Below are positions 6,266 to 57,250 of a DNA stretch of 57,599 nt, in pieces. The notes beneath the pieces were generated by a model. That model saw only the letters and a list, made by a program, of their open reading frames with translations. It made no database searches and was not told the DNA's origin. The DNA lies in IMG/VR virus record IMGVR_UViG_3300035136_000050, positions 1 to 57,599 of that record; one strand, 5' to 3'. Position 1 is the stretch's first letter. Each line of letters opens with the position of its first letter. This DNA is from a virus. The position numbers and the translations under genes were made by a program.

Positions 6266-6286
6266 TACGTAAGCTGTTGTTATGTG
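6266..6286 (+). repeat. Dispersed 21-bp site 1 (TACGTAA-N7-TTATGTG)
   Basis: Member of the 13-copy family of 7-7-7 inverted repeats; intergenic, 47 bp before the fibre gene and next to the 31-bp inverted repeat at 6291-6321. Confidence 0.85.
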
Positions 6287-6290
6287 CGCA

Positions 6291-6321
6291 GACCCTAAAG
6301 GTCTAACAGACCTTTAGGGTC
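6291..6321. repeat. 14-bp-arm inverted repeat, copy 1
   Basis: GACCCTAAAGGTCT-aac-AGACCTTTAGGGTC, a perfect inverted repeat. Five related copies occur (6291, 37400, 43390, 56962, 57195), with the arm centre either TAAAGG or TTGAGG. Three of them (6291, 43390, 57195) lie directly beside a dispersed 21-bp site. It could fold in RNA, but no T-tract follows, so it is more like a mobile palindrome or protein site than a classic terminator. Confidence 0.85.
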
Positions 6322-6333
6322 TAGGAGTGAGAG

Positions 6334-9300
6334 ATGAGGATATCGGAATTGCAGGAGATGTTAAAGCCATACGTGGTGGGGTGGATTAGCGAGGCGGGGG
6401 GCGGGGAGGGGCCGTTTGCGCCGAGTCCACACGATTTGGGGGGGGCGCATCACACGGGGAGCCTGGCGACGGCGCAGTACCCTGACGCGATTTTGAGGGA
6501 CGGGAGCCGGAGCCTGACGGGGAATTTGAGCGTGGGGAGCGGGGTGACGATAGATGGGGTGGATATTAGCGCGTTGGAGAGTGATTTTGAGGCGCACGAG
6601 CTGGCGACGGCGATGGCGGGGCATAGCGGGATTGGAGAGCACGATCACGAGGACGCGGCGGGGGGCGGGCAGCTCGACCACGGGCTGGCGCTGACGGGGC
6701 TGGGGGATGACGACCACACGCAATATTTGAACACGGCGCGGCACCTGGCGATTGGGGACGCCTCGCCGCACCACGCGGCGGCGACGGCGGGGGATGGGAT
6801 CGCGGTGACGGGGCAGCAGGTGGCGGTGGACCTGGCGACTAATTCGCTATTGGAGTTTAGCAGCGGCGGGGATTTGAGAGTGTCGGCGGCGGCGGCGGGG
6901 GATGGATTGACAGGAGGCGGGGGAGTTGCGTTGGCGGTGGACCTGCACGGGACGTGGAGCGGGTTGGAGATCAGCAGCGCGCAGTTGCGGGTGGACCAAG
7001 ACGCGGTGTTCACGTGGACGCACTTGCATACGTTCAACGCGGGGATTGACGTGGATGGAACGTTGGAATTCCAGGGTGCGGAGCAGATCACGACGACGTC
7101 GGGCAATTTGACGATTTTGCCGGTGGGGGATTTGGTATTGTCGCCGGCGGGGGAGGATGTGCGGCCCGGGACCACAGTGGGAGTGGACCTGGGAGAGTAC
7201 AATTATAAATGGCGGACGTTGTACGCGGCGGAATTGTACGTGGAGACCCTTGTTGCCCAGGATGTGATGGCCACGATTGGGGGACGGATATTGGTTGCAC
7301 CCACAACGAAATTGACGGCGGCAATGACAAATGTGCAAAATTTTATTTATGTGGAACACAATAATTTGGCGGTGGATGATTATGTGATGTTGGAGTCTGC
7401 CCCGGGGGGGGTGGCACAATTTGAGATTATGCAGATTCTAACGGATCCCTCGCCAGCCGGACCGCCATTTTTGTATACAGTGAGTCGAGATGAGGATGGG
7501 ACTGGAGCAAATACGTGGCAGAGTGGGGACGCGGTGGCGAACCTGGGGTATGCGGTGGGAGAGGGGTATTTGGAGTTGACGAGCACCTCGACGGTACACA
7601 CGGACCTGGGGCCGAACATGACGATTTATGCGAGAACGGGGACGGCGAACTGGGACGACGTGGCGGCGACGGTGGCGGTGGGGAACCTGGAGAGTTTTTT
7701 GGATTATTCAGCGGCTGAGTTTGGGGTGGCGGCAGGGGATGATTTGAGTTTGAATCCGGCGGCGGGCGGGGTTTCGGGATTTTCGATTGATCGAACGAAT
7801 GGGTTGAGGTTGTGGAACACGGGGGTGAAATTGTACGATGGGTCCGATTTGCGGATAGAGATGGACCCGACGGCGACGGGGACGGATGCGATGTTTTGGG
7901 CGGGGCCGTCATCGAGTGATAAGCGGTTTGTGGTGACTGGGGATGGGGACGTGTGGCTCTCGACGCTGGCGATTAGCGAGGGGATGGGGGAGTGGTTGTT
8001 TAGCCAGGCGGATGGGCTGTTGTTGCTGGGGCAGCCGCTGAAGGTGCTGAAAGAGGGTGGTGTCAATTACTGGGGAGGGACGAGGGGAGAGCGGGCGACG
8101 GTGAGTGGGGCGCTGCACACGGAGCAGGGGAGGTGGACGGGGAGCCGGGGAGTGGTGGTGGAGGAGGCTACGACTAATTTATGCACAAATCCCAGTTTTG
8201 AGATAGGGACGACTGGATGGGGTACAGGAGGATCAAATACAATTGCATCCTCGACGGTGTGGTCTATGCGAGGTAATCGCTCACTGAAATGCACATATCA
8301 GGATAATACTGTATTGGCGAGTGATTCGATTACAGTTCCTGCGGCAGGAGATTATACTCTGACTGCCTGGGTGTACGTGCCGCAGGATTGGGATGGTGGA
8401 ATTATATATTTATCGGATTCCGGTTTTACCGGTGCAACTAGAGAATATAGAGCGATTAGTGCGGATGTGATGGGGCAGTGGGTGAGGATAGAAACTGGCG
8501 TAACTGTAGATGCGGGCGACTTGAGTGGATCGTTTAGGGTGAATACAAATTCAGCGCCTTCAGCAGGTAAATTTATCTATGTGGACGCTGTGATGTGGGA
8601 GCAGTTGGATCATGCGACTAGCTATTGTGATGGAGACCAGGGGGATGGGTATGCCTGGAGCGGGACGGTGCATGCGAGCACGAGCGCGCGGACGGCGACC
8701 GGTGTGAATCTGGATGCGCTTGTGGGGCTGATTAGCGGAAACGATGCAATGAGTATTGTGGCGTGGGTACAGATGCCTTACGATTATGATGCCACATGGC
8801 CACATAGTACGAGTGTTTATGTAATGGATGCGTATGATGTGGCTGGACGCATCATTATGGAGTATCGAGCTGCAAACAATGTTTTCAGGGTGTTTAATGG
8901 GACAACATGGGTTGCCGCAAGCGAAATTCAATTTTCGGCGGGGGATTGGTTGTGTTTGGCATATACATTGGATTATGGCAATGATGAGTACTATTTGTAT
9001 TGTAATGGTGAATTGGTAGCATCTGATATTACTGCGGCATTGGCTGGAACGTTGTCGCAGTGGCGGCTAGGGAGCCGTTATTCGGGTAGCCAGATTGGCA
9101 ATTTTACGTTTGCAGAGTTTGCGACATTTGATCGGGTGCTCACGGCGGACGAGGTGGCGGGGATGTACGCGGGGCAGAGGCCGCTGGTGGACGGGGGGGC
9201 GATTGAGCGGCCTGGGATTTACATTCTGGATGGGGAATTCAGGTTGCAGTCGTCACAGACGGGCCAGCGGGTGGAGATGCTGCCAGAGGGGATTGGGATT

Positions 9301-9969
9301 TACGACGAGACGGGGTACACGGGGGTGGCGAGGCTGCTGGGGGGGCGGGTGGACACGACGGGGAAGACGCTGGACGCGGAAGGGGACGCGCTGGGATGGT
9401 TTGGGTATGACGGGGATGATGCTCTCCAGGTGGCGTGGTACGCGGCGGGGGACGACGCGGGGAAGATCGTGGCGGGAAGCGGGGCGCTTTGGCTGGATGA
9501 GGATGGAATTTCGATTGAGATAGGGTCCAGCAAAGCGAACGGCCGCGCCTATAAGTTTTTGGATAGCAGCGGCAACGTCGTGTCGGGGATATTTGGCTAC
9601 CTAGGGGTGCATAACGTTGTAGACATAGATGTTGAGCCAGTAGCATCTAAACAATCTGATCTGAATTTGACAGCCTCGGGAGGGTCTGGGGGATATTATG
9701 GCAGGATAGTTTTGAAGGCCGAGAGCGATGGAGATGCTGATACGGCTGAATTGGAAATTTACAGCGATGGTATATCCAGGTATGTGGATTCAAATGTGTC
9801 GATCATTTGTGATGATGATTTTCGGAGCGGGGGCGGTCTGGTCGTGGGCAACGCGAGTGTGAATCCGAATGCTGAGCAAATTCATTTTGGCTCGGCGACG
9901 TATAGGCTGAGGCGAAATGGGACGCACATCGAGTGGTACAATGGCGCTAGTTGGGTGCAGTTGGATTAG
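6334..9969 (+). CDS. Tail fibre / receptor-binding protein with LamG-like lectin domain
   Basis: A 1211-residue fibre, the last large gene of the tail operon; ATG at 6334 after TAGGAG. The N-terminal 200 residues carry His/Asp-rich fibre motifs (HDLGGAHHTGSL, GLGDDDHTQYLNTARH). The middle has beta-strand fibre repeats. About residues 615-760 look like a carbohydrate-binding module (YCDGDQGDGYAWSG), and about 790-950 form a concanavalin/LamG fold (SIVAWVQMPYDYDATWPHST, FATFDRVLTADEVAGMYAG). A beta-rich C-terminus follows, ending with SVNPNAEQIHFGSATYRLRR. Base composition falls from about 75% GC near 8100 to 45-50% over 8200-9120, which suggests that the binding domains were acquired separately. 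Confidence 0.85.
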   Translation: MRISELQEMLKPYVVGWISEAGGGEGPFAPSPHDLGGAHHTGSLATAQYPDAILRDGSRSLTGNLSVGSGVTIDGVDISALESDFEAHELATAMAGHSGIGEHDHEDAAGGGQLDHGLALTGLGDDDHTQYLNTARHLAIGDASPHHAAATAGDGIAVTGQQVAVDLATNSLLEFSSGGDLRVSAAAAGDGLTGGGGVALAVDLHGTWSGLEISSAQLRVDQDAVFTWTHLHTFNAGIDVDGTLEFQGAEQITTTSGNLTILPVGDLVLSPAGEDVRPGTTVGVDLGEYNYKWRTLYAAELYVETLVAQDVMATIGGRILVAPTTKLTAAMTNVQNFIYVEHNNLAVDDYVMLESAPGGVAQFEIMQILTDPSPAGPPFLYTVSRDEDGTGANTWQSGDAVANLGYAVGEGYLELTSTSTVHTDLGPNMTIYARTGTANWDDVAATVAVGNLESFLDYSAAEFGVAAGDDLSLNPAAGGVSGFSIDRTNGLRLWNTGVKLYDGSDLRIEMDPTATGTDAMFWAGPSSSDKRFVVTGDGDVWLSTLAISEGMGEWLFSQADGLLLLGQPLKVLKEGGVNYWGGTRGERATVSGALHTEQGRWTGSRGVVVEEATTNLCTNPSFEIGTTGWGTGGSNTIASSTVWSMRGNRSLKCTYQDNTVLASDSITVPAAGDYTLTAWVYVPQDWDGGIIYLSDSGFTGATREYRAISADVMGQWVRIETGVTVDAGDLSGSFRVNTNSAPSAGKFIYVDAVMWEQLDHATSYCDGDQGDGYAWSGTVHASTSARTATGVNLDALVGLISGNDAMSIVAWVQMPYDYDATWPHSTSVYVMDAYDVAGRIIMEYRAANNVFRVFNGTTWVAASEIQFSAGDWLCLAYTLDYGNDEYYLYCNGELVASDITAALAGTLSQWRLGSRYSGSQIGNFTFAEFATFDRVLTADEVAGMYAGQRPLVDGGAIERPGIYILDGEFRLQSSQTGQRVEMLPEGIGIYDETGYTGVARLLGGRVDTTGKTLDAEGDALGWFGYDGDDALQVAWYAAGDDAGKIVAGSGALWLDEDGISIEIGSSKANGRAYKFLDSSGNVVSGIFGYLGVHNVVDIDVEPVASKQSDLNLTASGGSGGYYGRIVLKAESDGDADTAELEIYSDGISRYVDSNVSIICDDDFRSGGGLVVGNASVNPNAEQIHFGSATYRLRRNGTHIEWYNGASWVQLD

Positions 9970-9981
9970 CTAGGAGGAGAG

Positions 9982-10365
9982 ATGAAGGCGACGGATGTTT
10001 GCACGGAGTTGAAGGCGCTGCTGGGGGTGCGGCGGAACGAGGAGATCGCGCCGGCGGTGAGGGGTCTGTTGGATAAGCGAAAGCCGCGACAACCAACGGG
10101 GGTGTTGTTGGTGTTGGACGAGGGGACGTATTATCCAACGGTAGTGGGAATGAGGCAACCAACGTTGGGCCAGGTGGAGGCGCTCCGGGAGGCGTGTTTG
10201 CATTTTTCGGAGACGCAGTTGGGGAAGATCGGGAATGTGTTGCGGGAGAGGGAGATCGAGGCGCGGGTGCGCGCGGAGTTGAGACGAGAGGCGGGGGGCG
10301 AGGGGCGGGGGGCGAGGGGCGAGGGGCGAGGGGCGAGGGGCGAGGAACACGGGTCGGCGGAGTGA
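9982..10365 (+). CDS. Small hypothetical protein with repeat-derived tail
   Basis: A 127-residue protein starting at ATG 9982 behind AGGAGGAGAG and closing the tail operon. I do not recognise the family. The first 100 residues look like a genuine globular sequence (MKATDVCTELKALLGVRRNE, PTGVLLVLDEGTYYPTVVGM). The last 30 are encoded by a GGGGCGAG microsatellite and read as Gly/Arg/Glu repeats, so the C-terminus has been extended by repeat expansion. A strong terminator follows at 10404. Confidence 0.7.
   Translation: MKATDVCTELKALLGVRRNEEIAPAVRGLLDKRKPRQPTGVLLVLDEGTYYPTVVGMRQPTLGQVEALREACLHFSETQLGKIGNVLREREIEARVRAELRREAGGEGRGARGEGRGARGEEHGSAE
10290..10346 (+). repeat. GGGGCGAG microsatellite
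   Basis: Tandem 7- to 8-bp GGGGCGAG-type units at the 3' end of the preceding gene. Shorter copies of the same unit lie in coding sequence at about 38169-38195 (small terminase C-terminus) and 42340-42357 (MuF protein), so the expansion recurs in unrelated genes. Confidence 0.8.
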
Positions 10366-10403
10366 GTGGATTGGGGGATTAGGTATTGGATATTGGGGAT
10401 TTG

Positions 10404-10440
10404 GCCCTGGCGGCCGGGATGGCCGCCAGGGCTTTTTTGT
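10404..10440 (+). terminator. Rho-independent terminator of the tail operon
   Basis: GCCCTGGCGGCC-gggat-GGCCGCCAGGGC forms a perfect 12-bp stem with a 5-nt loop, followed by TTTTTTG. It ends rightward transcription of the tail genes just before the convergent leftward genes begin. Confidence 0.95.
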
Positions 10441-10450
10441 TGGGGTAGGG

Positions 10451-10471
10451 CAGGTAATGGTTTGTTATGTG
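10451..10471 (+). repeat. Dispersed 21-bp site 2 (CAGGTAA-N7-TTATGTG)
   Basis: Lies in the convergent junction. The stop codon of the leftward gene 10465-10833 is the TAA inside its right arm. Confidence 0.85.
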
Positions 10472-10833
10472 CGCTGGTATTTGATGCTCCAGCCGCAGGC
10501 TGGACACGCGGCCTGATTGGAGTATTTGTGGTCGCCAGCGGGCTGGTAGGCGGTGGCTCCACAGGTGGGACAGATGAGATCAATGATCTCATCCGTGTCG
10601 GCCAGCCACCAGGCTCCCCAGAGATGGCGTGGAATTCCGAGGATGGCCCAGGCCTTCTGGGCGTCCATTTTAAGGGCGGTACGCTGGATATCCTCAATGG
10701 GATAGAGGGTGTAGCGACCGATTTTGTATTCGGTCCATTTGTCGCGCTGAGCGATTTTACTGATTCGCTCGTTGGAAATTCCGAGGATGGCAGCGATTTC
10801 TTTGCGGGTGTAGTAGCCAGGGATTTGAGTCAT
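10465..10833 (-). CDS. HTH protein with C-terminal zinc ribbon
   Basis: A 122-residue DNA-binding protein. The start at 10833 is fixed by an ATGA overlap with the upstream HAD gene. Residues 5-50 (YYTRKEIAAILGISNERISK, then YTLYPIEDIQRTA) form a MerR/excisionase-like helix-turn-helix. Two CxxC pairs near the C-terminus (CPTCG, CPACGW) would form a zinc ribbon. It is the distal gene of a three-gene leftward operon driven from 11726-11753. A regulator or recombination accessory role is possible but not shown. The stop codon lies inside a dispersed 21-bp site. Confidence 0.7.
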   Translation of the reverse strand: MTQIPGYYTRKEIAAILGISNERISKIAQRDKWTEYKIGRYTLYPIEDIQRTALKMDAQKAWAILGIPRHLWGAWWLADTDEIIDLICPTCGATAYQPAGDHKYSNQAACPACGWSIKYQRT

Positions 10834-11366
10834 TGTTCGTTCCGCTTGAAGAACGCATTGGCGTAGATGAATGAGCAACTTGCGGCCTCGGCGGCGAGGC
10901 GATCATCGTCGCTATCGCCGACCATGAGGGTTTCGGAAGGGATAACGTTGGCATCAGCGATGGCCTGCAGGAGCATTCCGGGGGACGGCTTGCGCCAATC
11001 TGACTGCCAGGATGAATAGTGTTCTCCTGGAGTATGAATAATTATGTCGGGCTGGTTTTCGGGAATGGGCGACCAATGGCCTTTTTTGCTCTGGTAGGCG
11101 AAGCTGACGTAGAGCCGGGCGTCAAGGCTACGAGCCAGTCGGATCAGCCGGTACATGGTTTCATTCTTGGTGGGGTATTTGTCTGGATTGCCAAAATTTT
11201 CTTTGTGCATCCAGTAGCCCAGGCCGACGCCGCCCTGATTGGTGGCGAGGGAGATATGAGGCAGGTCGTTGCGCTGGAAGTATTCTGCGACGCCTGGTAG
11301 CAAGTCGTCGGTCCACTTTTGGGTGAGGGTGGTGTCGATATCGAAGATGATTAGTTTGGGATTCAT
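10830..11366 (-). CDS. HAD-superfamily phosphatase, PNKP/HisB-like
   Basis: A 178-residue haloacid dehalogenase-fold hydrolase. All four motifs are present: motif I FDIDTTL (DxDxT), motif II ATNQGGVG, motif III lysine in RKPSPGM, and motif IV VGDSDDDRLAAEAA. The ATNQGG signature and length place it near the polynucleotide 3'-phosphatase / histidinol-phosphatase subgroup. A DNA 3'-end cleaning role would therefore suit a phage, but a sugar or nucleotide phosphatase cannot be excluded. AAGGA precedes the ATG at 11366. Coupled by ATGA to the HTH gene. Confidence 0.8.
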   Translation of the reverse strand: MNPKLIIFDIDTTLTQKWTDDLLPGVAEYFQRNDLPHISLATNQGGVGLGYWMHKENFGNPDKYPTKNETMYRLIRLARSLDARLYVSFAYQSKKGHWSPIPENQPDIIIHTPGEHYSSWQSDWRKPSPGMLLQAIADANVIPSETLMVGDSDDDRLAAEAASCSFIYANAFFKRNEQ

Positions 11367-11932: not shown

Positions 11933-13162
11933 TCAGGTTTGGGCTTGCTCCAGGGCGCGGGTGTAGTATTGGAGTTTTTGGCCAAGGTTGAGGCGGGCGG
12001 TGGGGATGGTGGTATGGCAGCCGAGGGTGGCCAGACGACGGGCGAGGTAGCGGGCGTAGGAGAGGGAGACGTGAAGCTCGATTAGATCGCCGCCCGTTAA
12101 AGTGTGTTTGGCCACCAGGTCGCGGGCGAGGGTGCAGGCGTAGTCCTGGCGCGCGCGGGCTTTGGCGTGATCGCCGGACCAAAGGGGGTTTGGCCCGGCG
12201 TTACCCTCCGGGCATAAACCGTCTTGGGTGAGGATGAGCACGTGGTTGTTGTTGAGGCGGGCGCAAGCGAGGGCCTTGGTGAATAGTTGTTGACCAGGTG
12301 ATGAATTTGGCCTTGGGGCCTGGACGATGGCGAAGCGCCGTTGCGGCCGTGGCCAATAGGGATTTTGGTTTTGGAAAACGAGGGCGGTCTCGTCCTCGAT
12401 GCGGGGATAGGATGGGTCGCGGGTGACGTGGATGTTGCGGAATTGGCTGGGGATGACGGCGCGTTGGTGAGTGGCTAGCAGGGTGAGGCCCTGAGCCTGG
12501 CAGAGGGCGCGGGTGTCGGCGGTGATGGGGACGCGGCGCTTGCGCCGGACACGGTCGCCAACGATTAAAACGAGAATACCGCCCGGGGTGAGAACGCGCT
12601 TACACTCACGGTAGGCGGCACGCATGACGCGCAGGTAGTGCTCGTAGACGTGGATGTTGCCGACCTGGGCCTTGGCGTCGCCGTAGCTGAGGCCGTGGCA
12701 AGGGTGGACGTGCTGGCCGTCCAGGGCGTGGCCACTTTTGCGGTTCCAGTTGGAGAACGTGTCGAAATAGGGGGGCGAGGTGAGGATGGCGGGGAAGGTG
12801 GCATTGGGCAACGGGAGGTGCAGCGCGTTCCATTGGCAGGTGAGGACGGGAGAGACGAAAAGCTGGCTTGAGCGGATATGGAGCGCGTTTTGGTTTTGAA
12901 GCGCGGCCCAGTGCGGCTCGACGTCGCCGGAGAGGACGGGTCGGGATTTGAGGGCGGCAAGCAGGATGGAGCCAGCGCCGCCAAAGGGGTCCAGGACGGG
13001 CTGGCCCTGGGCCGTGTAATGGTCGAGGAGCCAGGCGAGCCAGTAGAGGTTGACGCGGGCCTTGTGCTGGAAGGTGGTCGGGGTGAACAGGCGCTGGCGC
13101 AGGTGGTGGTCACGGCCGAAGGAATGTGGATTGGCGGAATAGGCGGATAGAGTAGTGAGCAT
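11933..13162 (-). CDS. DNA methyltransferase (TSPPY) with DUF6884-like C-terminus
   Basis: A 409-residue S-adenosylmethionine-dependent DNA methyltransferase. SAM motif I is VLDPFGGAGSILLAAL (about residues 56-71), and the catalytic motif is ILTSPPYFDTF (about 130), of the N4-cytosine or beta-class type. There is no partner restriction enzyme, so it looks like an orphan methylase that protects phage DNA. The last 120 residues (LTGGDLIELHVSLSYARYLA, TARLNLGQKLQYYTRALE) resemble the C-terminal half of the DUF6884 protein at 14949-15476, suggesting a fusion. The N-terminus reads through a repeat (SAYSANPHSFG). Confidence 0.85.
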   Translation of the reverse strand: MLTTLSAYSANPHSFGRDHHLRQRLFTPTTFQHKARVNLYWLAWLLDHYTAQGQPVLDPFGGAGSILLAALKSRPVLSGDVEPHWAALQNQNALHIRSSQLFVSPVLTCQWNALHLPLPNATFPAILTSPPYFDTFSNWNRKSGHALDGQHVHPCHGLSYGDAKAQVGNIHVYEHYLRVMRAAYRECKRVLTPGGILVLIVGDRVRRKRRVPITADTRALCQAQGLTLLATHQRAVIPSQFRNIHVTRDPSYPRIEDETALVFQNQNPYWPRPQRRFAIVQAPRPNSSPGQQLFTKALACARLNNNHVLILTQDGLCPEGNAGPNPLWSGDHAKARARQDYACTLARDLVAKHTLTGGDLIELHVSLSYARYLARRLATLGCHTTIPTARLNLGQKLQYYTRALEQAQT

Positions 13163-13257: not shown

Positions 13258-13324
13258 GGGGTGCAGGGGTGCAAAAGGGGCGCTGCACCCCGCTGCACCC
13301 TATGTGTCTGCACCCCTGCACCCC
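13258..13324. repeat. 16-bp inverted repeat with internal copies
   Basis: GGGGTGCAGGGGTGCA (13258-13273) and its exact complement (13309-13324) enclose 35 nt that contain two more CTGCACCC units. It lies directly 3' of the FtsK-like gene and 5' of the small ORF. It would form a strong hairpin in leftward mRNA but lacks a T-tract, so it is more likely an RNA stability or processing element, or a repeat insertion. Confidence 0.8.
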
Positions 13325-14922
13325 TAGTTGCGGCCCAGGAGTTGGTTAATGGCTTTGGCGCGCGAGCCGGATTTGCCGGTTGGTCCCCAGAGGTCTTTCA
13401 TGATGGCGGTGGTTGACGCGCCCTGGCGGCCGAGTTCGCGGACGCGCTGTTCTTCGTTGGGGGAGAGGCTGGCCGTGGGGCCGTCGTCGGTTGGGGGCGG
13501 CTCGACAGATGGCGCGGGCTGGCGCGGGCCGGATTGGCCGGCGAGGAGGGCGTCTATTTCGGCGCGGGTGATGACGGGGGCCTGGAGTTCGACGTCGTTG
13601 TTGTAGCCTCGAAGGCGGCAGATAGCGCGGCCAGCATCGAGGCCCTGGGCGCGGGTGTGACCCAGGAGGACACGGGCTTGATGCGGATCGGCGGCGTGGA
13701 ATTGGACGCGGGTGACGAGCTGGTTGCGGATCTCGCTGGCGGTGGAAGAGACCTTGAAATCCTGGCCGGCCAGGACGAGCCAGAGGCCGAAGGAACGACC
13801 GAGCAGCACCAGGTCCACGGCCTGGCTGGCGATTTGTTTGTCCCCCCGGAGCAGGATGGTGCCCTCGTCGAGCAGGGCCACGAGGGGGCGGAATTGGCCC
13901 GCGCCGTTGGCCCTGGCGTTATAGTCGGCGAGGCTCTTGGCCCCGCCGATGGATTCAAAGGCGGCTTTGCGGGCCTGGAGCTCTTCGTAGCAGGCGGCGA
14001 GGATGGCGCTGCCGTCGTCGCGGGCCGTGACGACGGGCCAGCGCAGGGCGGCGGCGTCCCGCCAGGCGACGAGTTCGCTCTTGAGATCCACGATGGCGAG
14101 GTCGCAGGCGTTGGATTTGACGAATTGGTAGAGTAATGATTCCAGGAAGGTTGTTTTGCCAAAGCCGGTGGAACCGGCGACGGCAAAGTGGACCAGGTCG
14201 TCCATGGCCATGGAGATGGGTTGTTGTTGGCCAGTGGCAGGGTCGCATGTGACGCCGAGAAAGACGCGGTCCAGGGATGCGCCGCCCTGGGCGTCGAGGT
14301 AGCGCGCGAGGGGGACGTAATTGGGCCAGTTCATGATGACGTCGCGGGTGGATTCGTCGGCGGCGGCCAGGGTAGGCGGGGCGTTGTTGGTGGTGTGAGT
14401 GGTGTAGGAGCGGGCTTGCTCGGCCTGGACACGCTGCGCGCCGGCGGTGACGAGGAATTGGGCTTGTTCCCAGCCGGGGGCGACGAGCACGTCTCCGTCG
14501 CTGAGTTGGGTGGTTGCGCCCACGGCACGGTTGGCGTCGAAGATGGTCCAACGGCCACCGGCCTTGGAGATGACGAGGGGGAACAGGCCACCGATGGGGG
14601 CGATGGTGGCAGCCCAGCGCCAGCCACGCAGGGTGAGGGTGGTGATGAGGCCGAGGCCGGCGGCGGTGATCAGGACCAGCGCCACGAGGCGGAGCAGGAT
14701 GTAGACGGCCAGGTCCACGGGTTCGCGGCGGGCGCGGTCGGCGCGGGCCTCGGCCCAGCGGGCCTGATTTTCCTCAAGGGTGGCTTGCTCGTGGGCGCGT
14801 TGCTCGGGGGTGAGGGCGGGGGGGTCGCAGCCTCGGAAGGCGACCCAGGATAGGGCGATGATGACGATGATGGCAAAGGGGGTTGGTGAGTTTAGAAATC
14901 TGGGGAGTGTTAGGTTGCGCAT
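13324..14922 (-). CDS. FtsK/SpoIIIE-like membrane-anchored DNA translocase
   Basis: A 532-residue ATPase. The N-terminus has hydrophobic segments at about residues 15-30 (FAIIVIIALSWVAF) and 73-97 (LLRLVALVLITAAGLGLITT). Walker A is GSTGFGKTTFLESLL at about residue 248 and Walker B is PLVALLDEG. The late motif LVLAGQDFKVSSTASEIRNQ is typical of FtsK-type motors. A C-terminal helix-turn-helix-like tail (GRQGASTTAIMKDLW) may bind DNA. The start has GGAAGGAGT. The domain order resembles single-protein plasmid transfer motors (TraB-like), which is unusual for a tailed phage. It is not the packaging ATPase, which lies at 38928-40691. Confidence 0.8.
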   Translation of the reverse strand: MRNLTLPRFLNSPTPFAIIVIIALSWVAFRGCDPPALTPEQRAHEQATLEENQARWAEARADRARREPVDLAVYILLRLVALVLITAAGLGLITTLTLRGWRWAATIAPIGGLFPLVISKAGGRWTIFDANRAVGATTQLSDGDVLVAPGWEQAQFLVTAGAQRVQAEQARSYTTHTTNNAPPTLAAADESTRDVIMNWPNYVPLARYLDAQGGASLDRVFLGVTCDPATGQQQPISMAMDDLVHFAVAGSTGFGKTTFLESLLYQFVKSNACDLAIVDLKSELVAWRDAAALRWPVVTARDDGSAILAACYEELQARKAAFESIGGAKSLADYNARANGAGQFRPLVALLDEGTILLRGDKQIASQAVDLVLLGRSFGLWLVLAGQDFKVSSTASEIRNQLVTRVQFHAADPHQARVLLGHTRAQGLDAGRAICRLRGYNNDVELQAPVITRAEIDALLAGQSGPRQPAPSVEPPPTDDGPTASLSPNEEQRVRELGRQGASTTAIMKDLWGPTGKSGSRAKAINQLLGRN

Positions 14923-14948: not shown

Positions 14949-15476
14949 CTAAAGCCTGGACTCCAGGGTGGGCAGATAACTGTTTGTTATGTGAGCTGGA
15001 TGTTGGGTATTGGATATTAGGTATTCGATTTGTTGGTTGAGCCAGCGCAGTTGCTGGCCGATGCCCAGGCCCTGCATGGGGATTTCTATGGTGTAGCCCA
15101 GGGCTTGGAGCCAGCGGGCCAGGCAGGCGTGGTAGGGTTTGCCAGCCAGGATAGTGATTTGGTCCTGGAGAGTGATGTGGTGGATGAGGTCATGTAGGAC
15201 ATTGGCAGACCAGCGTCGCCGGTAGCTGCCGGACGCCTGGGCGAGGGTGAAATCGTAGGGCGCGATGATGGCGGCCGGGTCTACGAGATGGTGATGGGCG
15301 CTGAGGATGTACCAGCGGTCGGCGACTAGTTCGGCGTAGCGGCGGGCCTTTTTGAACCAGACGGATTGGTAGAGGTCGGCGGCGGGGGCGGGATGATCTA
15401 GTTTTTGGCCGACGCAGGCGACAAGGGCGATTTGCTCGGCGTATCGGACATTGATTGTGATTAGAGATTCGGTCAT
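14949..15476 (-). CDS. DUF6884-family protein
   Basis: A 175-residue protein with the hallmarks of DUF6884: VACVGQKLDHPAPAADLYQS near the N-terminus, ADRWYILSAHHHLVDP in the middle, and a C-terminal IPMQGLGIGQQLRWLNQQ. The family occurs in phages and mobile elements, and its biochemical role is not established to my knowledge. ATGA-coupled to the upstream gene, with GAGGTGC as binding site. The C-terminal 17 residues (AHITNSYLPTLESRL) translate through a dispersed 21-bp site, so the gene end has been reshaped by the site. Confidence 0.75.
   Translation of the reverse strand: MTESLITINVRYAEQIALVACVGQKLDHPAPAADLYQSVWFKKARRYAELVADRWYILSAHHHLVDPAAIIAPYDFTLAQASGSYRRRWSANVLHDLIHHITLQDQITILAGKPYHACLARWLQALGYTIEIPMQGLGIGQQLRWLNQQIEYLISNTQHPAHITNSYLPTLESRL
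14973..14993 (+). repeat. Dispersed 21-bp site 3 (CAGATAA-N7-TTATGTG)
   Basis: Lies inside the 3' end of the DUF6884 gene and 51 bp upstream of the FtsK-like gene start. Confidence 0.9.
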
Positions 15477-15817: not shown

Positions 15818-16686
15818 GAGAGCACCTCGATGCCGTTGCCGTTACGGCGGATTTGGCCGGATTCTTCGAGCTGGCCGAGGGTTAGTGTGACCCAGGATTT
15901 GGAGCGGCCAATGGCGTGGGCGGCGTCGCGGTGGGATGCGCCCGGGTTTTGGTCAAAGTAGTCTAGCAGGTCGGCGGTGGCCTGGGCACGGTTGCGTCGC
16001 CTGGCCCGGTTAGCGTGGTCAAGGTGGGCCTGGTTGGCCGATGGGGCGGCCAGGACGTGGGCAGGTTGGCCGGTTGGGGCCTGGTTATTGCCCGGTTTGT
16101 GACCGGGCAGTTGGCCGGTTTGTGACCGGGCAGGGGTGGTTAATTGGCCGGTTCCTGGCCGGTTATTGTCCGGTTTGTGAGCGGACAATTGGGCGGCTTT
16201 TGACCGGGCAGGGGTGGGCAATTGGGCGGGCAGGTCGCCGGTTTCGCGGCGGGTTTGGTTGGAGCGAATGGCCAGGTTTGTGGCTCCGACGACGGCCAGT
16301 ATGGGGAAAATGGCCGGGGCGACGGTGGACAGGCCGGGCCGGACTTCGAGTACAACGGTGAGGCTGATGGTGACGACGACGTAGACAGCGCCGGTGGTTA
16401 TGGAGAGCCAGAGCAGGCCGGGGGGGGCGAGGGTGCGGCCACGCTTGAGGTTGCCGGCGGGGGTGAGGCTGGATTGGTTCCAGTCGTAGAGACGCAGGGC
16501 GGTGGCGACGGTGGAGATACCGAGGGTCTCGATGACGGCGGCGATGATCAGGGCGATGGCCAGGGGCACGTCCAGGTGGGCGCGGGCGGCGCGGGCGACG
16601 AAAAAGGCGCTAGGCCCAGGGGCGAGCCAGGGGGCCAGGCGGGCGACGAGGTCCAGGGCGGTTTGTTCGAGATTGGGTGTTTTCAT
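15814..16686 (-). CDS. Membrane protein with C-terminal winged helix
   Basis: A 290-residue protein starting MKTPNLEQTALDLVARLAPW at 16686 (ATGA overlap with the gene upstream; GGGAG binding site). Hydrophobic segments lie at about residues 28-55, 83-108 and 112-135. A low-complexity linker holds two copies of a 24-residue unit, TPARSxxxQLxxHKPxNN. The C-terminus (DAAHAIGRSKSWVTLTLGQL, then EESGQIRRNGNGIEV) is a winged helix. It may be a membrane-tethered DNA-binding partner of the FtsK-like motor in the same operon; that is inference. Confidence 0.7.
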   Translation of the reverse strand: MKTPNLEQTALDLVARLAPWLAPGPSAFFVARAARAHLDVPLAIALIIAAVIETLGISTVATALRLYDWNQSSLTPAGNLKRGRTLAPPGLLWLSITTGAVYVVVTISLTVVLEVRPGLSTVAPAIFPILAVVGATNLAIRSNQTRRETGDLPAQLPTPARSKAAQLSAHKPDNNRPGTGQLTTPARSQTGQLPGHKPGNNQAPTGQPAHVLAAPSANQAHLDHANRARRRNRAQATADLLDYFDQNPGASHRDAAHAIGRSKSWVTLTLGQLEESGQIRRNGNGIEVLS

Positions 16687-20094: not shown

Positions 20095-20132
20095 CGGTTT
20101 GTCCTTTGGGTATTAGGTATTGGGTATTAGGG

Positions 20133-20153
20133 CAGATAAGACGTTATTATGTG
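20133..20153 (+). repeat. Dispersed 21-bp site 4 (CAGATAA-N7-TTATGTG)
   Basis: Supplies the TAA stop of the small gene 20147-20326 and lies 39 bp upstream of the next start (20094). Confidence 0.9.
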
Positions 20154-20326
20154 TCCTGGTTTTGAGTGTTGGGATAGGTGAGATGGATTGCTAGAAAGTC
20201 CAGGAACAATATGAGATAGGCTGGTTTTGTGTAGCCGGTCACGAATAGATAGACGGTTAGCAGACAAACCAGGGCGGTGATTAGTAGTTTTGTGTCGTCT
20301 TCGAGTAGCCATAGTAGTTTGTTCAT
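20147..20326 (-). CDS. Small two-segment membrane protein
   Basis: A 59-residue peptide, MNKLLWLLEDDTKLLITALV..., with two hydrophobic segments (LLITALVCLLTVYLFV and AYLILFLDFLAI) separated by TGYTKP. GGAGC lies just before the ATG at 20326. An overlapping frame of similar length on this strand is basic and not protein-like, so this frame is preferred. The stop TAA is inside the dispersed 21-bp site. The function is unknown; a small inner-membrane protein between helicase and Zn-finger genes. Confidence 0.6.
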   Translation of the reverse strand: MNKLLWLLEDDTKLLITALVCLLTVYLFVTGYTKPAYLILFLDFLAIHLTYPNTQNQDT

Positions 20327-24755: not shown

Positions 24756-24774
24756 GATTTCTCCTGTGGCTGCG

Positions 24775-24795
24775 CATGTAATAAAGCGTTATGTG
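24775..24795 (+). repeat. Dispersed 21-bp site 5 (CATGTAA-N7-TTATGTG)
   Basis: Between the RepA-like gene start and the ASCH gene; supplies the ASCH gene's TAA stop. Confidence 0.85.
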
Positions 24796-25058
24796 CCCTG
24801 GTGGGGAGTGGTGCGTTCTGGGTCGTGGACGATGTAGACGGCGTCGTACACGAGGATTTTGTCGGCGTCTACGATGGGGTAGATGGCGGCAAGGGTGGCG
24901 ATGGCGATGACTCTGCCGGCGGGGAGTTTGTAGGGCGAGTCGTAGCCGGCGGCGGCCAGGGGGCCACGGTAGGAGGCGGCCCAGGAGCGGGTTTCGATTT
25001 GTTTGGCTCCGAGGGCGACGAGGGTGGCCCAGGGCTGGTGGAGGGTGAGGGTTTTCAT
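24789..25058 (-). CDS. ASCH-domain protein
   Basis: An 89-residue protein starting MKTLTLHQPWATLVALGAKQ at 25058 behind CAGGAG. This N-terminal signature, then IETRSW, is diagnostic of ASCH domains (PUA-like fold), which bind RNA or modified nucleosides; some hydrolyse N4-acetylcytidine. The protein is shorter than typical ASCH proteins and ends HQGT at a stop codon inside a dispersed 21-bp site, so the C-terminus may be trimmed. Confidence 0.8.
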   Translation of the reverse strand: MKTLTLHQPWATLVALGAKQIETRSWAASYRGPLAAAGYDSPYKLPAGRVIAIATLAAIYPIVDADKILVYDAVYIVHDPERTTPHQGT

Positions 25059-29576: not shown

Positions 29577-29887
29577 TGGCCTTTTGGTCTCCTTTTCTGG
29601 CCGCGATAGCGCGGGCCGGTTATAATAGAATCGGGCGTGGGGGGACATCGCTGCGTTTTTCAGCAGGGGCCACGTGCCCCGCTCGCGCACGGGTTTCTCG
29701 ACGTCCTGTGTGGATAGCCCCACGCCCGGGGCCCACACTGGTTGTTTTGCTTCGGCACATCTAGGGAACGGTGAGGCAGCAGGTTGGGGGGGGGAACGCT
29801 GCGACCTCACCGGCCCTTAGTTGGGCCGAAACGCCAGGATAGATAATTGGTTATTATGTACCCTGGTTTCGGCAATCTTCGATATGC
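29577..29887 (-). other. Structured 311-bp gene-less region (candidate ncRNA)
   Basis: No convincing reading frame. Several nested inverted repeats are present: CGGGCGTGGGG (29632 region) with CCCCACGCCCG (29718 region), GGGGCCACGTGCCCC, CGGTGAGG...CCTCACCG with an inner CAGC/GCTG pair around 29770-29812, and CGGCCC-ttagtt-GGGCCG. A TATTATAAC -10-like box lies leftward near 29620, and dispersed site 6 lies at 29840-29860. It may be a structured RNA or a remnant of an IS200/IS605-type element end. Neither is proved. Confidence 0.4.
29840..29860 (+). repeat. Dispersed 21-bp site 6 (TAGATAA-N7-TTATGTA)
   Basis: In the gene-less region downstream of the recombinase fragment; followed by CCCTGG like most copies. 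Confidence 0.8.
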
Positions 29888-31604: not shown

Positions 31605-31623
31605 GGTTTGAAATAGTACCAAA

Positions 31624-31652
31624 TGTCACGTAAAAAAGGTGACAAATGTCAC
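31624..31652. promoter_or_regulatory. TGTCAC operator cluster
   Basis: TGTCAC (31624-31629), GTGACA (31639-31644) and TGTCAC (31647-31652) form two overlapping inverted repeats between the divergent genes. They are a likely binding array for the XRE repressor encoded just to the right. Confidence 0.6.
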
Positions 31653-31703
31653 ATCATTCCGCTTGGTATAGAAATTTGTCCCACGGGTTTAGCGCGTTGT
31701 GAT

Positions 31704-32099
31704 ATGCTTGCCGTTGTGAATGATTCCTTTGCCACGTGGTTAATAGAAGAACTTAAGAAAAAGGACTGGTCGCAGAGCGATTTGGCACGACGAGCCGGGG
31801 TGAGTCAGGTTACTGTATCTCGGGTGCTGAGTGAAACGCGCCAGCCTGGGCCTGAATTTTGCCAGGGGGTTGCGCAGGCGTTGCGCATTCCGCCAGAGCA
31901 GGTTTTTCGTCGCGCCGGATTGTTGCCACTAAAATCACAGCAGCAAGAGGGAATCGAGGAGTTGCTTTTTTATTATGAGCAACTGACGCCTGGCGATCAG
32001 GCGCGCGCGCTGACGTTGTTGCGCGCGCTGGCTGAGGAAAGGGTGGAGTATGATGCTGAGGCGAGTCCGAGATTACAGGGCAAGACGGCGACGGCGTGA
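31704..32099 (+). CDS. XRE-family (CI-like) repressor
   Basis: A 131-residue regulator. The helix-turn-helix spans WSQSDLARRAGVSQVTVSRV with flanking helices (residues about 20-70). The C-terminal QQEGIEELLFYYEQLTPGDQ is a helical dimerisation region without a LexA-type protease domain. Start uncertain: ATG 31704 and a leaderless GTG 31716 are both possible. A TTGTCC/TGATAT promoter-like pair (31676-31705) would favour the latter. It faces the early leftward operon across palindromic operators, the standard lysogeny-switch layout. Confidence 0.8.
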   Translation: MLAVVNDSFATWLIEELKKKDWSQSDLARRAGVSQVTVSRVLSETRQPGPEFCQGVAQALRIPPEQVFRRAGLLPLKSQQQEGIEELLFYYEQLTPGDQARALTLLRALAEERVEYDAEASPRLQGKTATA

Positions 32100-33824: not shown

Positions 33825-33842
33825 GTGGCGAGACGAGCAGGA

Positions 33843-33863
33843 TAGATAAGTGATTATTATGTG
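33843..33863 (+). repeat. Dispersed 21-bp site 7 (TAGATAA-N7-TTATGTG)
   Basis: In the non-coding attP region after the GvpU-like gene. Confidence 0.85.
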
Positions 33864-34003
33864 CGCAGGCCCTGGCGGGAGTATTTCCCGGAAATGGGAG
33901 TTTTTGGGAACCAGGGGGCGCACGGATTTAATGGACCGGAGGGTTCAGGGGTGGCTGTGGGGAGTAACCGTGGGGACCGGGGTGTGAGGTTTGATGGTGC
34001 ATA

Positions 34004-34048
34004 CTTCACATCCGTGAGGTCGTGAGTTCGAGTCTCTCCGCGCCCACC
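34004..34048 (+). other. attP: 3' part of a tRNA-Val(CAC)-like gene
   Basis: The sequence from the anticodon loop (CTTCACAT) through variable loop, T-arm (GTGAGTTCGAGTC) and acceptor strand (CGCGCCCACC) matches the 3' half of a bacterial tRNA with anticodon CAC. No matching 5' half (GGGCGCG) lies upstream, so it is not a whole tRNA. It sits 176 bp before an integrase gene. Integrases commonly recombine into tRNA 3' ends and the phage copy restores the gene. A false minus-strand reading of it gives the familiar RRDSNSRPHG string. Confidence 0.8.
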
Positions 34049-34164: not shown

Positions 34165-34192
34165 TTATGTGTCCTGAAATTCAAATTATGTG
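34165..34192 (+). repeat. Tandem half-sites TTATGTG-N-CCTG, 21 bp apart
   Basis: TTATGTG at 34165 and 34186, each followed by tCCTG or aCCTG, lie two helical turns apart just before the integrase. They match the right half of the dispersed 21-bp site. They could be integrase arm sites or an operator. The rest of 33825-34223 holds a GGCCGCA...TGCGGCC inverted repeat and no gene. Confidence 0.7.
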
Positions 34193-34223
34193 ACCTGTAC
34201 CGGGGGGACTGGAGGTAGCACGG

Positions 34224-38927: not shown

Positions 38928-40691
38928 TTGGTGTTGGGTGCAGGCGTCCGAGGGACGGGAAACAGGGCACATAATAGAACCTTATCTGACCTGGATAGGC
39001 GGCGGGTGCGGGCGGCGGCGATGGTGGAGCAGCGGCTGCGGGCGGCGCGACGGGACCGGGCAAAAGTGGACCTGTTGACGTGGACAATGTTGCACCGGCG
39101 ACGGCTGGGGCCGGGACGGTTGTTTGACCTGACGCAGCACCGTTATTTGATGGAGATTTACCGCGACCAGGCTGAGGAGATAGTGGTGATTAAGGCGGGA
39201 CAAGTGGGAGTGAGCGAATACGCGATCTCCTGGGTGCTGTGGGCGGCGGATATGCGAGGGGCAACAGGGTTGTATGTGTTCCCGACCGACACGCACGTGA
39301 GTGATTTCAGTGCGGCGCGGCTGGGTCCGGCGATTGAGCCAGAGGTGTCGCCGTATCTGGCGGACCTGGTGGTGGCGGCGCAGGGGAATAGCAAGCGCGG
39401 CGCTGACCGAGTGGGACTGAAACGGGTGCGCAATCGGTTTATTTATTTCCGAGGCGCGAAGGTGCAGCCGGACGGGCGAGCGCCTCAGTTGCGCAGTATT
39501 GACGCGGACGTGCTGGTGCTCGATGAATATGACGAGATGGACCGGCGAGCGCCGGCCATTGCCCGCGAGCGGCTGGGGCATAGCGCCATCGCCGAGACGC
39601 GGCTGATTTCGACACCCACATTCGCAAACGTTGGCGTCCACGCGGAATACCTGGCCAGCGATCAGAGATCGTGGCACGTGCGATGTATGGCCTGCGGTCG
39701 TTGGCAGGATTTGACGATTGATGACCTGGTGGTGGAGTGGGATGACCTGGGCAGGCCAGTGGCGTGGCACGAGGACGGGGATGGCAAGCCGTTTTTGGCG
39801 TGTAGGGCCTGCGGGGGTGAGATGGACCGGCTGGGACGAGGGGGATGGGTGGCGGCGTACCCAGGCCGGGCGGCACATGGGTATCATTTGAGCCGATTGT
39901 TCGCGCCTCAGCGGGCACTAGTTGTTCTCCTGGATGCCCTAGGCAGCACGGATGAGAGCGAGCGGCAGCAGGTTTATAACCAGGGCCTGGGGCTGCCGTA
40001 TCGTTCGCCCACCTCGATGTCGTTGGATGACGAGACGTTGGACAGGTGCAGGCGAGAATACGGCCTGGCGATTGGGGACGAGGAACCGGTGATGGGGGTG
40101 GACGTAGGACGGGCGCTGCACGTGGTGGTGCGCGAGACGCTGGAAGGCGGGGAGCGCCGGGCGCGGTTCATTGGCGAGGTGCCGAATTTTGAGGACGTGA
40201 CGCAGTTGATGAACTTGCACGATGTGAGGCGGTGCGTGGTGGACGCGCTGCCGGAGACGCGGAAGGCGAGGGAATTCCAGGCCGAGCACGGGCGGGGCGT
40301 GGTGTGGCTGGCGTATTATAGCGGCCAGAGGGCGGGGAGCCAGAAGGAAGCGGCGGCGCGCTGGAACGAGGGCGAGGGGACGGTGACGCTGGACCGGACG
40401 CGGACGCTGGACGCGACGTTGGGACTTTTTGCGACGGCGGCGCGGGGAGAGGTCGGGAACACATTGCCTGCGAACGCGCGGGATTTGCGGGATTATTACG
40501 CGCATTTGAAGGCGATGGAGCGCGTGTTCCGCGACGGGACGGACGGAAACCAGGTGGCGGTGTACGTGGAGAGCGGGCCGGATCACTATGCTCACGCGGA
40601 GAATTATTGTATGGCGGCGGCATTGGCCCCGGGTCCTGTGAAGGTGCGGACGTCGAGCCGGGTGGTGAGCGCGCGGGGGATGTTTGACTGA
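38928..40691 (+). CDS. Terminase large subunit (GpA-like)
   Basis: A 587-residue packaging motor and nuclease. The Walker A-like motif is EIVVIKAGQVGVSEYAISW and Walker B is ADVLVLDEYDEMDRRAP. The motif-III region is ETRLISTPTFANVG. A zinc-binding insertion (CMACGRWQDL, CRACGGE), characteristic of the GpA group, follows. The nuclease domain carries the acidic residues in EEPVMGVDVGRALHVVV and VVDALPETRKAREF. Start uncertain: TTG 38928 has GAGG upstream but would translate a dispersed 21-bp site (38968-38988) as AHNRTLSDLD. ATG 39021 begins the conserved part. Confidence 0.9.
   Translation: MVLGAGVRGTGNRAHNRTLSDLDRRRVRAAAMVEQRLRAARRDRAKVDLLTWTMLHRRRLGPGRLFDLTQHRYLMEIYRDQAEEIVVIKAGQVGVSEYAISWVLWAADMRGATGLYVFPTDTHVSDFSAARLGPAIEPEVSPYLADLVVAAQGNSKRGADRVGLKRVRNRFIYFRGAKVQPDGRAPQLRSIDADVLVLDEYDEMDRRAPAIARERLGHSAIAETRLISTPTFANVGVHAEYLASDQRSWHVRCMACGRWQDLTIDDLVVEWDDLGRPVAWHEDGDGKPFLACRACGGEMDRLGRGGWVAAYPGRAAHGYHLSRLFAPQRALVVLLDALGSTDESERQQVYNQGLGLPYRSPTSMSLDDETLDRCRREYGLAIGDEEPVMGVDVGRALHVVVRETLEGGERRARFIGEVPNFEDVTQLMNLHDVRRCVVDALPETRKAREFQAEHGRGVVWLAYYSGQRAGSQKEAAARWNEGEGTVTLDRTRTLDATLGLFATAARGEVGNTLPANARDLRDYYAHLKAMERVFRDGTDGNQVAVYVESGPDHYAHAENYCMAAALAPGPVKVRTSSRVVSARGMFD
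38968..38988 (+). repeat. Dispersed 21-bp site 8 (CACATAA-N7-TTATCTG)
   Basis: 33 bp before ATG 39021, the preferred start of the terminase. Confidence 0.85.
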
Positions 40692-43167: not shown

Positions 43168-43364
43168 CGGATATTAGGTATTGGGTATTCTAGCCCGCTG
43201 GGTGCTGGGTTGGGATCGGGTACACCCCCCGGGTGTCCCCCCCGGGATCCCCCCCACCCTATCCCGCTCAGCACCGAGGGGGTTAGAACGGGGTGTTTGC
43301 GCGCAAACGTCGCGCGGCGTGCAAACATTAGAACGCAGAGCGGCGGAATGGGCGGATTTCAGGG

Positions 43365-43385
43365 CACATAATAGGGCATTATGTG
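43365..43385 (+). repeat. Dispersed 21-bp site 9 (CACATAA-N7-TTATGTG)
   Basis: A perfect inverted repeat, 53 bp before the capsid gene, adjoining the inverted repeat at 43390-43420. The 270-bp gap 43168-43437 also holds tattggg, GTTTGCGCGCAAAC and acgcagagcggcggaatgg repeats and no gene. Confidence 0.9.
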
Positions 43386-43389
43386 AGCA

Positions 43390-43420
43390 GACCCTAAAGG
43401 TCTGACAGACCTTTAGGGTC
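43390..43420. repeat. 14-bp-arm inverted repeat, copy 3
   Basis: GACCCTAAAGGTCT-gac-AGACCTTTAGGGTC immediately after dispersed site 9 and before the capsid gene's ribosome binding site. Confidence 0.85.
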
Positions 43421-47278: not shown

Positions 47279-47288
47279 ACGGATAGGG

Positions 47289-47309
47289 CACGTAAGCGAT
47301 TATTATGTG
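47289..47309 (+). repeat. Dispersed 21-bp site 10 (CACGTAA-N7-TTATGTG)
   Basis: Intergenic, 18 bp before the next start codon. Confidence 0.85.
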
Positions 47310-47326
47310 ATCTGTGGAGAGTGCGT

Positions 47327-50934: not shown

Positions 50935-50986
50935 GGCTGCGTGTTACGTGCTGCGTGTTACGTGCTGCGTGGTGCGTTTGGCAGGG

Positions 50987-51007
50987 CATATAATAGGGAG
51001 TTATGTG
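50987..51007 (+). repeat. Dispersed 21-bp site 11 (CATATAA-N7-TTATGTG)
   Basis: In a 116-bp gap rich in gtgttacgtgctgc repeats, 44 bp before the connector gene. Confidence 0.9.
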
Positions 51008-51050
51008 TGCTGGCTTTGAGAGCAGGATTTTCGGAATAGGCGGATAGATT

Positions 51051-53029: not shown

Positions 53030-53088
53030 TTGCAGGCGGGCGGCGTTGAGGTCGGCGAGGTTTTTGATGAGGACGGCCAGGAGCAGGG

Positions 53089-53109
53089 CAGGTAATCACC
53101 TATTATGTG
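53089..53109 (+). repeat. Dispersed 21-bp site 12 (CAGGTAA-N7-TTATGTG)
   Basis: In the gap before the glycosyltransferase gene, followed by TCCTGG and two other repeat families. Confidence 0.85.
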
Positions 53110-53176
53110 TCCTGGCTTTCGACAGGCTCAGGATGAGAGCAGGATTTTCGGAATGGGCGGATGAGGGGATAGGGGA

Positions 53177-56961: not shown

Positions 56962-56992
56962 GACCCTTGAGGTCTATCAGACCTCAAGGGTC
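56962..56992. repeat. 14-bp-arm inverted repeat, copy 4
   Basis: GACCCTTGAGGTCT-atc-AGACCTCAAGGGTC, directly before the ribosome binding site of 57006. Preceded by a GTTTGCGCGC-type palindrome. Confidence 0.85.
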
Positions 56993-57005
56993 TAGGAGTG
57001 TAGCG

Positions 57006-57203
57006 ATGACGAGGATCAGGTACGTTGGCGGGGAGAGGCAGGCCGAGGTGCTGGTGCATACCAAGGGGCAGGGGTGGAGGGTGTACCAGTGGAATGCGGG
57101 GAATGGGTTTGTGGTGGACGTGGACGATGAGGAACTGGTGATGGAGTTTTTGGAAGAGCCGGATCAGTTTGCGCGAGCGGACGCGCCATTTATAGACCCT
57201 TGA
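57006..57203 (+). CDS. Small protein paralogous to the 55205 N-terminus
   Basis: A 65-residue protein (MTRIRYVGGERQAEVLVHTK) with AGGAG upstream. RIRYVG and the DVDDEELVMEFLEEPDQF end parallel the N-terminal module of the HhH protein at 55205-55618. Between tail chaperone and tape measure; function unknown. Confidence 0.65.
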   Translation: MTRIRYVGGERQAEVLVHTKGQGWRVYQWNAGNGFVVDVDDEELVMEFLEEPDQFARADAPFIDP

Positions 57204-57225
57204 GGTCTGGGAGACCTCAAGGGTC
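57195..57225. repeat. 14-bp-arm inverted repeat, copy 5
   Basis: GACCCTTGAGGTCT-ggg-AGACCTCAAGGGTC overlapping the stop of the previous gene, 4 bp before dispersed site 13. Confidence 0.85.
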
Positions 57226-57229
57226 TGCT

Positions 57230-57250
57230 CATATAACCTGTTGTTATGTG
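57230..57250 (+). repeat. Dispersed 21-bp site 13 (CATATAA-N7-TTATGTG)
   Basis: 53 bp before the tape measure start; followed by TACTGG. Confidence 0.9.

Follow-up and report, generated by a model that had tools for sequence, protein, structure and literature searches.

The closest described counterparts of the locus analyzed here are the single-recombinase Xer systems, the hallmarks of which are a recognition site located beside the recombinase gene and a protein of about 355 aa (PMC5357621). The inner ATAA-N6-TTAT sequence is common to many bacterial dif sites (table in PMC2731167). A protein with the tyrosine recombinase fold, MrpR, acts as a repressor on repeated intergenic elements of the phage SPbeta (PMC10516654). 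Our search of the open-licence literature yielded no description of a regular array of recombinase sites in phages. Here we analyze a phage genome with 14 evenly dispersed dyads and present a candidate recombinase for them, together with the distribution of such dyads among related phages.

The window, that is, the whole stretch of DNA that was analyzed, is an entire virus record (57,599 bp). Because an ORF of 1093 aa remains open across the junction of the two ends, a circular map is very likely. The phage is temperate, with Chloroflexota bacteria as the probable hosts; relatives of its integrase, P0001, occur in Anaerolineae MAGs and point to a Chloroflexota/Anaerolineae host. Scanning of the window for Rfam families and tRNAs gave no matches. 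The GC skew is positive (about 0.17-0.42) around the entire circle (1-57599) regardless of gene direction, which suggests that one strand is always leading or displaced, as in unidirectional or rolling-circle replication. Repeats of other kinds include a 300-bp direct repeat (49062-49720; two copies, 91% matches) in a gene of the structural region and a 78-bp tandem repeat in a leftward gene (16057-16229), with smaller units resembling GGCAATTGGCCGG.

The first-pass annotation of this DNA had recognized 13 copies of a 21-bp string, CANNTAA-N7-TTATGTG, and a weaker copy at 2861. All 13 coordinates are correct, and a scan with a 35-column weight matrix identifies the weaker copy as a genuine 14th member: 14 places, and no other, score above the threshold, the remaining matches being the same sites on the opposite strand. 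With a leave-one-out matrix, every site stays within the top ~22 matches, most of which are sites on both strands. The string was slightly too strict, being exact on the plus strand in 9 of the 13 copies; those at 6266, 29840, 33843 and 38968 carry one or two changes, and the copy at 38968 is an exact match on the minus strand. When up to 2 mismatches are allowed, 13 forward and 4 reverse matches are found, versus 0 for a reversed control pattern. The site is longer than 21 bp: it is an imperfect palindrome, CAGGGCACATAA-N7-TTATGTGnCCTG, that consists of two ~12-bp arms and an unconserved 7-bp center. This 12-N7-12 layout, a dyad of ~31 bp, is the architecture of the core sites of dif/loxP-type tyrosine recombinases.

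Along the map, site 1 (2856..2886; CAGGGCAGATAA-taaacga-TTATAGGTCCTA) is located in a long tail gene near the 3' end, and is followed by site 2 (6261..6291). Site 3 (10446..10476) lies between convergent genes and provides the stop codon of the gene 10465-10833 (minus strand), site 4 (14968..14998) is in the 3' end of the minus-strand gene 14949-15476, 46 bp upstream of a gene for an FtsK-like protein, and sites 5 (20128..20158) and 6 (24770..24800) provide the stop codons of the minus-strand genes 20147-20326 and 24789-25058, respectively. The previously reported use of the TTA of the site (TAA on the minus strand) as the stop of three leftward genes, at 10465, 20147 and 24789, is thus borne out. 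Site 7 (29835..29865) is 226 bp past the 3' end of the recombinase gene discussed below and is the counterpart of the gene-adjacent site of the relatives; site 8 (33838..33868) adjoins a putative attP; site 9 (38963..38993), upstream of the terminase gene, is assigned to the minus strand, its inner arm motif fitting better reversed; site 10 (43360..43390) is upstream of the capsid/protease gene, and a dyad is present in the same junction of two relatives, G011 and G004. Sites 11 (47284..47314), 12 (50982..51012), 13 (53084..53114) and 14 (57225..57255) complete the set; all sites except site 9 are assigned to the plus strand. All 14 sites are documented by both the matrix and the dyad scans. 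In the product of the gene downstream of site 10 (43438-46086), capsid protein, maturation protease and Ig-like domain are fused; part of this gene is 65% nucleotide-identical to Rctr41k, a virus found in an anaerobic enrichment culture (DAMO/AAA).

The 14 sites occur about every 4 kb, with circular gaps of 2.1-5.2 kb and a coefficient of variation of 0.20. This evenness, which had been asserted at first reading, is far beyond chance: none of 200,000 random circular placements was as even, and neither was any of 20,000 placements confined to gene junctions. The same polarity that had been ascribed to all copies survives as a bias (random flipping, p=0.0017; arms alone, 0.008); strict polarity can be rejected because the best-fitting orientation reverses 2-3 sites. 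Most of the sites are 20-100 bp ahead of start codons, some occupy operon gaps of 30-50 bp, those at 2861 and 14973 are inside genes, and that at 10451 separates convergent genes; the orientation of the sites is mostly constant across both directions of transcription. The combination of evenness, junctions of either orientation, operon gaps and in-gene positions favors a role at the DNA level over promoter control, in support of the earlier judgment that these are not ordinary operators, that their spacing is constrained, and that they do not depend on the direction of transcription. The spacers revealed no sign of selection for distinctness.

The first-pass annotation had missed both the recombinase-type dyad nature of the site and a linked recombinase in the same genome. 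The protein that we propose as the binder of the array, P0002 (30076..31224, minus strand), is identified as an Xer-like tyrosine recombinase by Pfam, NCBIfam, PDB profile and tree analyses, and its link to the array by gene-adjacent dyads. In the PDB profile search, P0002 matched XerA with 8e-30 and XerD with 1.5e-27. The NCBIfam match is Xer-like but under the curated cut-offs for XerA/C/D/S, which places P0002 outside those named equivalogs. The catalytic residues R-K-H-R-H-Y are invariant in the 7 aligned members of the P0002 clade, and all six are intact in P0002 itself. The clade received support of 98/98, then 99/99 with nine members, and is separate from the clade of the integrase P0001 (12 rows, from records with or without an array). 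The relatives of P0002 are 329-459 aa long, and the best-covering matches to P0002 in described phages are below about 33% identity. When the ORFs of 18 records were clustered, tyrosine recombinases were the sole family present in all array records. We consider it quite likely that P0002 binds the array sites.

The gene for P0002 follows a small one for an RHH-like protein in an operon that opens divergently from the gene of an XRE repressor (31623..32099, plus strand), and the same gene order is found in G002. P0002 is therefore expected to be expressed early, which speaks against a role as the master repressor of lysogeny. The other proteins that had been suggested as readers of the array fare poorly. 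The ParB HTH is present in the window and in none of the other four array phages that have a P0002-clade gene (G002, G012, G018 and G021), and it is found in the array-less G014. The XRE repressor can be rejected as the binder because the presence of XRE-like genes does not correlate with that of arrays across the genomes. The ParB-like proteins are large, 650-670 aa (26052-28058 in the window; 9340-11292 in G014, there directly 5' of the P0002 relative). Relatives of the FtsK/SpoIIIE-like translocase of the window (13324..14922, minus strand) co-occur with P0002: FtsK-like proteins above the Pfam cut-off are encoded in 5 of the 9 genomes with P0002 versus 0 of the 8 others, with a further weak match in G018. 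The FtsK-like gene is flanked by DUF6884 on both sides: one neighbor (14949-15476) is a DUF6884 protein in its own right, and the other, a DNA methyltransferase (11933-13162), shows a weak match at its C-terminal end.

We searched the whole records of relatives, which are metagenomic and in some cases partial, for dispersed dyads, independently of the motif of the window; in a control with first-order Markov shuffling of each contig, one spurious motif (n=5) appeared over all contigs. Distant relatives carry similar regular arrays with other site sequences. Among the P0002-positive records, G002 (IMGVR 3300048837_000773) has 17 sites (CAGaaCCGATAA, N6 with one N7), G012 (3300027811_000005) 13 sites (CGGGACTGATAA, N7), G018 (3300025164_000390) 11 sites (TAGGTAAnATAA, N6) and G021 (3300048577_000125) 8 sites (CTGTACnGATAA, N7). 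The arms vary between the phages and the ATAA/TTAT beside the spacer is largely kept, its TAA/TTA part being retained. Compared with random placement at gene junctions, the evenness is significant at p<5e-5 in each of the window, G002, G012 and G018, marginal in G011 (p=0.018), and not distinguishable in G021 (p=0.35). As to the test on related phages envisaged at the outset, the regular spacing is kept in G002, G012 and G018, and the polarity is not always kept: it is biased in the window and G012 and is not kept in G018 or G021. In long genes that lack junctions, sites are found inside the gene (11730 in G002, 26495 in G012, 13460 in G018); together with the sites in operon-internal gaps, these speak for a DNA-level role.

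Two records without a P0002-clade gene have dyads as well. G011 (3300031673_000058; L088-L090) contains 9 sites at 15-50060, with arms like AAnGnCnGTTAA and N6, and the fragment G004 (L081-L082) contains 4 sites with arms and spacer of the same kind. Both encode another Xer-like recombinase, the pair being 67% identical. A different Xer-like recombinase may serve a similar arrangement. The dyads of G011 and G004 form a second, separate kind of array, so that more than one family of recombinases may have given rise to arrays. No clear dyad array was detected in the capsid-gene relatives G003, G006, G007 and Rctr41k. A scan of viral contigs with the motif of the window itself gave 52 single matches and 0 multi-site contigs.

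In all 9 genomes with a P0002-clade gene, a dyad is located at or just past the 3' end of this gene (0-1.1 kb). G018, G020, G021, G028 and G029 have it at the gene end or inside the gene, and it follows at +176 bp in G014, +226 in the window, +547 in G002 and +1094 in G012; G029 has a weak dyad (8/12), and in G012 the distance amounts to 1.1 kb. The P0002-clade dyad is single in 4 of the 9 genomes (G014, G020, G028 and G029) and part of an array of 8-17 sites in the other 5, in 4 of which the array is demonstrably regular. The single dyads are TTGTTGTGATAA-tgctta-TTATCACAACAA, a perfect 12/12 dyad, at the gene end in G028, TAGGCACAATAA-cataca-TTATAGTGCCTA at +176 in G014 and TAGTGCGGATAA-cgtatg-TTATACGCACAA within the 3' end of the gene in G020; none of these three records has another strict TAA/TTA dyad of at least 9/12, the chance expectation being 0.1-0.3 per genome for the broader pattern that was searched. 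No such strict dyad is present in the records with P0001 only. The array and single-site forms are intermixed on the P0002 tree of nine members.

The first-pass inventory had also overlooked two exact tandem half-sites, TTATGTGTCCTG and TTATGTGACCTG (34165..34197, plus strand), which start at 34165 and 34186, 21 bp apart, directly before the integrase gene P0001 (34224..35165, plus strand; identified by Pfam, tree and att-region comparison). The same tandem layout is present in G002, G018 and G029, and half-sites or full dyads of matching specificity precede the integrase in all 5 array phages (the window, G002, G012, G018 and G021) and in G029. P0001 probably acts at an att site in a tRNA gene; a tRNA 3'-end-like sequence (34000..34048, plus strand), the putative attP, occurs at the same position before the P0001 relatives. 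The att regions of the integrases are rich in CACGGAT/CGTGAGG words, so that the target of the integrase probably differs from the array; a single pattern, CAC[AGC][TC]GG, misfits some loci, the window included. P0001 was rejected as the array binder because its family is present in 12 compared records with or without arrays and the att regions carry other repeats. The Chloroflexota integrase family (L061, L062, L094, L127, L133, L136) has no evident arm-binding domain, follows directly after tRNA 3' ends, and has CACGG-type words around att. G002 has the same tRNA 3' sequence at both contig ends (L076:1-120 and L078:19000-19168) and looks like an integrated prophage.

We propose, with a probability of roughly one half, that the 14 sites are dif-like and recognized by P0002, in other words, that the phage encodes a single-recombinase Xer/dif module the site of which has been multiplied into a regular array. 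This reading is grounded in the dyads and their regularity, in the core that is kept through arm turnover, and in the physical and phylogenetic link to P0002; the binding, cleavage, timing and purpose that follow are extrapolated from the sequences. P0002 would bind each site as a dimer, its two subunits being accommodated by the two arms that flank the 7-bp spacer. The gene and the adjacent site would constitute the Xer module proper, the number of sites having been raised to 14, mostly at gene junctions. Upon induction, P0002 would be synthesized early and bind the array on the circular replicating phage DNA; the bound sites could then synapse, and P0002, perhaps with the FtsK-like translocase, would resolve or unlink joined copies. 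P0002 also would bind the half-sites before the integrase gene, probably regulating the integrase. Because the spacers differ between sites, productive exchange would be expected when sister copies meet at one and the same site, and not between different sites, so that the array need not destroy the genome. The array may serve in resolving, unlinking or synapsing replicating DNA, or in regulation. We suggest, tentatively and with less confidence than we place in the module itself, that a resolution module has been turned into a genome-wide even lattice, the spacing of which is itself selected, to synapse, partition or reassort the replicating genome, an organization not known in phages. Several points count against the proposal that P0002 serves a multiplied dif-like site: the four phages with one site show that the P0002 clade can do without an array, and the array and single forms are intermixed on the tree; dyads also occur in G011 and G004, where no P0002-clade gene is present; the gene-adjacent dyads of G029 and G012 are weak and distant, respectively; the spacers show no selection for being distinct; and one dimer-resolution site is normally enough, so that 14 require another reason.

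The position of most sites 20-100 bp before start codons also counts against it, being what is expected of regulators, and it leads to the alternative that P0002 or another early protein regulates or silences transcription genome-wide through the dyads, which would be even because every stretch needs cover. We regard this as possible though doubtful, and keep it at that level on account of the MrpR precedent and of the half-sites before the integrase, which, being tandem, cannot be crossover sites and look regulatory. The catalytic residues lost in MrpR are, however, all kept in P0002 and its relatives, P0002 is on the early side of the XRE switch and is unlikely to be a lysogenic repressor, and neither the sites between convergent genes, in genes or in 30-50 bp operon gaps nor the independence of site orientation from transcription fits such control. 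Silencing of the stoperator kind, which had been put forward at first reading, may be considered alongside; the stoperators of cluster A are oriented with transcription (PMC9283540), unlike the array sites.

The DNA-level readings other than the Xer/dif module appear far less probable. That P0002 swaps modules of ~4 kb, each delimited by sites of like orientation, among phages or prophages in the same cell, in the manner of integron cassettes, would agree with the junction sites, the intact recombinase, the biased polarity in the window and G012, and the conserved placement before the capsid gene and one tail gene in G011; we nevertheless deem it improbable, given that no close pair with a common site specificity was found among the relatives, that the spacers lack address-like constraint, and that polarity is not kept in G018 or G021. 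Phages of the N15 type are known to have dispersed centromere sites, and the ParB HTH in the protein 26052-28058 would suit a centromere or condensation array bound by this protein or by host factors. This is very improbable considering the distribution of the ParB HTH described above, the layout with a variable 6-7 bp spacer, which is unlike parS, and the integrases and tRNA att sites of the window phage and its relatives. The ATAA-N6-TTAT core, as in dif, could also mean that the host XerCD recombinases act on the array as a mimic of the host dif; the arms, however, vary between phages, and single copies are located next to the recombinase gene of the phage, and we consider this explanation extremely improbable. 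The motif of the window is not enriched in four Anaerolineae/Chloroflexi MAGs, with ~0.5-2 matches per Mb, near the control level, although the true host, and its own dif, may differ; a host-wide repeat can be rejected on this basis.

If the proposed Xer/dif module is real, Xer/dif systems are encoded by phages themselves, and a regular site array has been gained or lost in several lineages, the two states being scattered over the P0002 tree in a way that gives no polarity to gain and loss. About nine families of recombinase-site pairs with differing arm specificities would be available ready-made, along with a natural test of why selection acts on the spacing of protein sites along DNA. P0002 might be a counterpart, still live in catalysis, of the dead-recombinase repressor of SPbeta, and the evenly spaced repeats of phage genomes from metagenomes would find an explanation.

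The comparison with known systems sets the array apart from each of them in some respect. Stoperators of L5 and cluster A are likewise dispersed in short intergenic gaps of temperate phages; unlike the array dyads, these more than 20 short sites are 13 bp long, asymmetric, recognized by an HTH repressor and oriented with transcription. Integron attC arrays in phages similarly offer several sites to one recombinase family, whereas attC sites are long, folded, flank short cassettes and are borrowed from integrons (PMC9892861). MrpR and its SPBRE elements share with the window a temperate phage, a protein of the tyrosine recombinase fold and repeated, mostly intergenic elements throughout the genome, but MrpR is a catalytically dead lysogenic master repressor with a 15-bp motif, in contrast to the intact residues, ~31-bp dyad and early position of P0002. 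Cre/loxP of P1 is also a phage-encoded tyrosine recombinase with a dyad, which keeps the replicon monomeric, and differs in having one site and a plasmid prophage. XerS/difSL and XerH/difH resemble P0002 most directly in combining one tyrosine recombinase with a dif-like dyad beside its gene, and the single-recombinase systems (XerS, XerH, archaeal XerA) share the 6-11 bp center and a similar protein size; the FtsK translocase of these systems, which XerA does without, may have a counterpart in the FtsK-like proteins of the phages. These systems are chromosomal, with one site per replicon and a function in dimer resolution, whereas here the module is phage-borne and has 8-17 dispersed sites in several phages; G014, G020 and G028 carry one site, and the window carries 14 instead of one, so that the P0002 module would work like a single-recombinase Xer system rather than being a plain member of that group.
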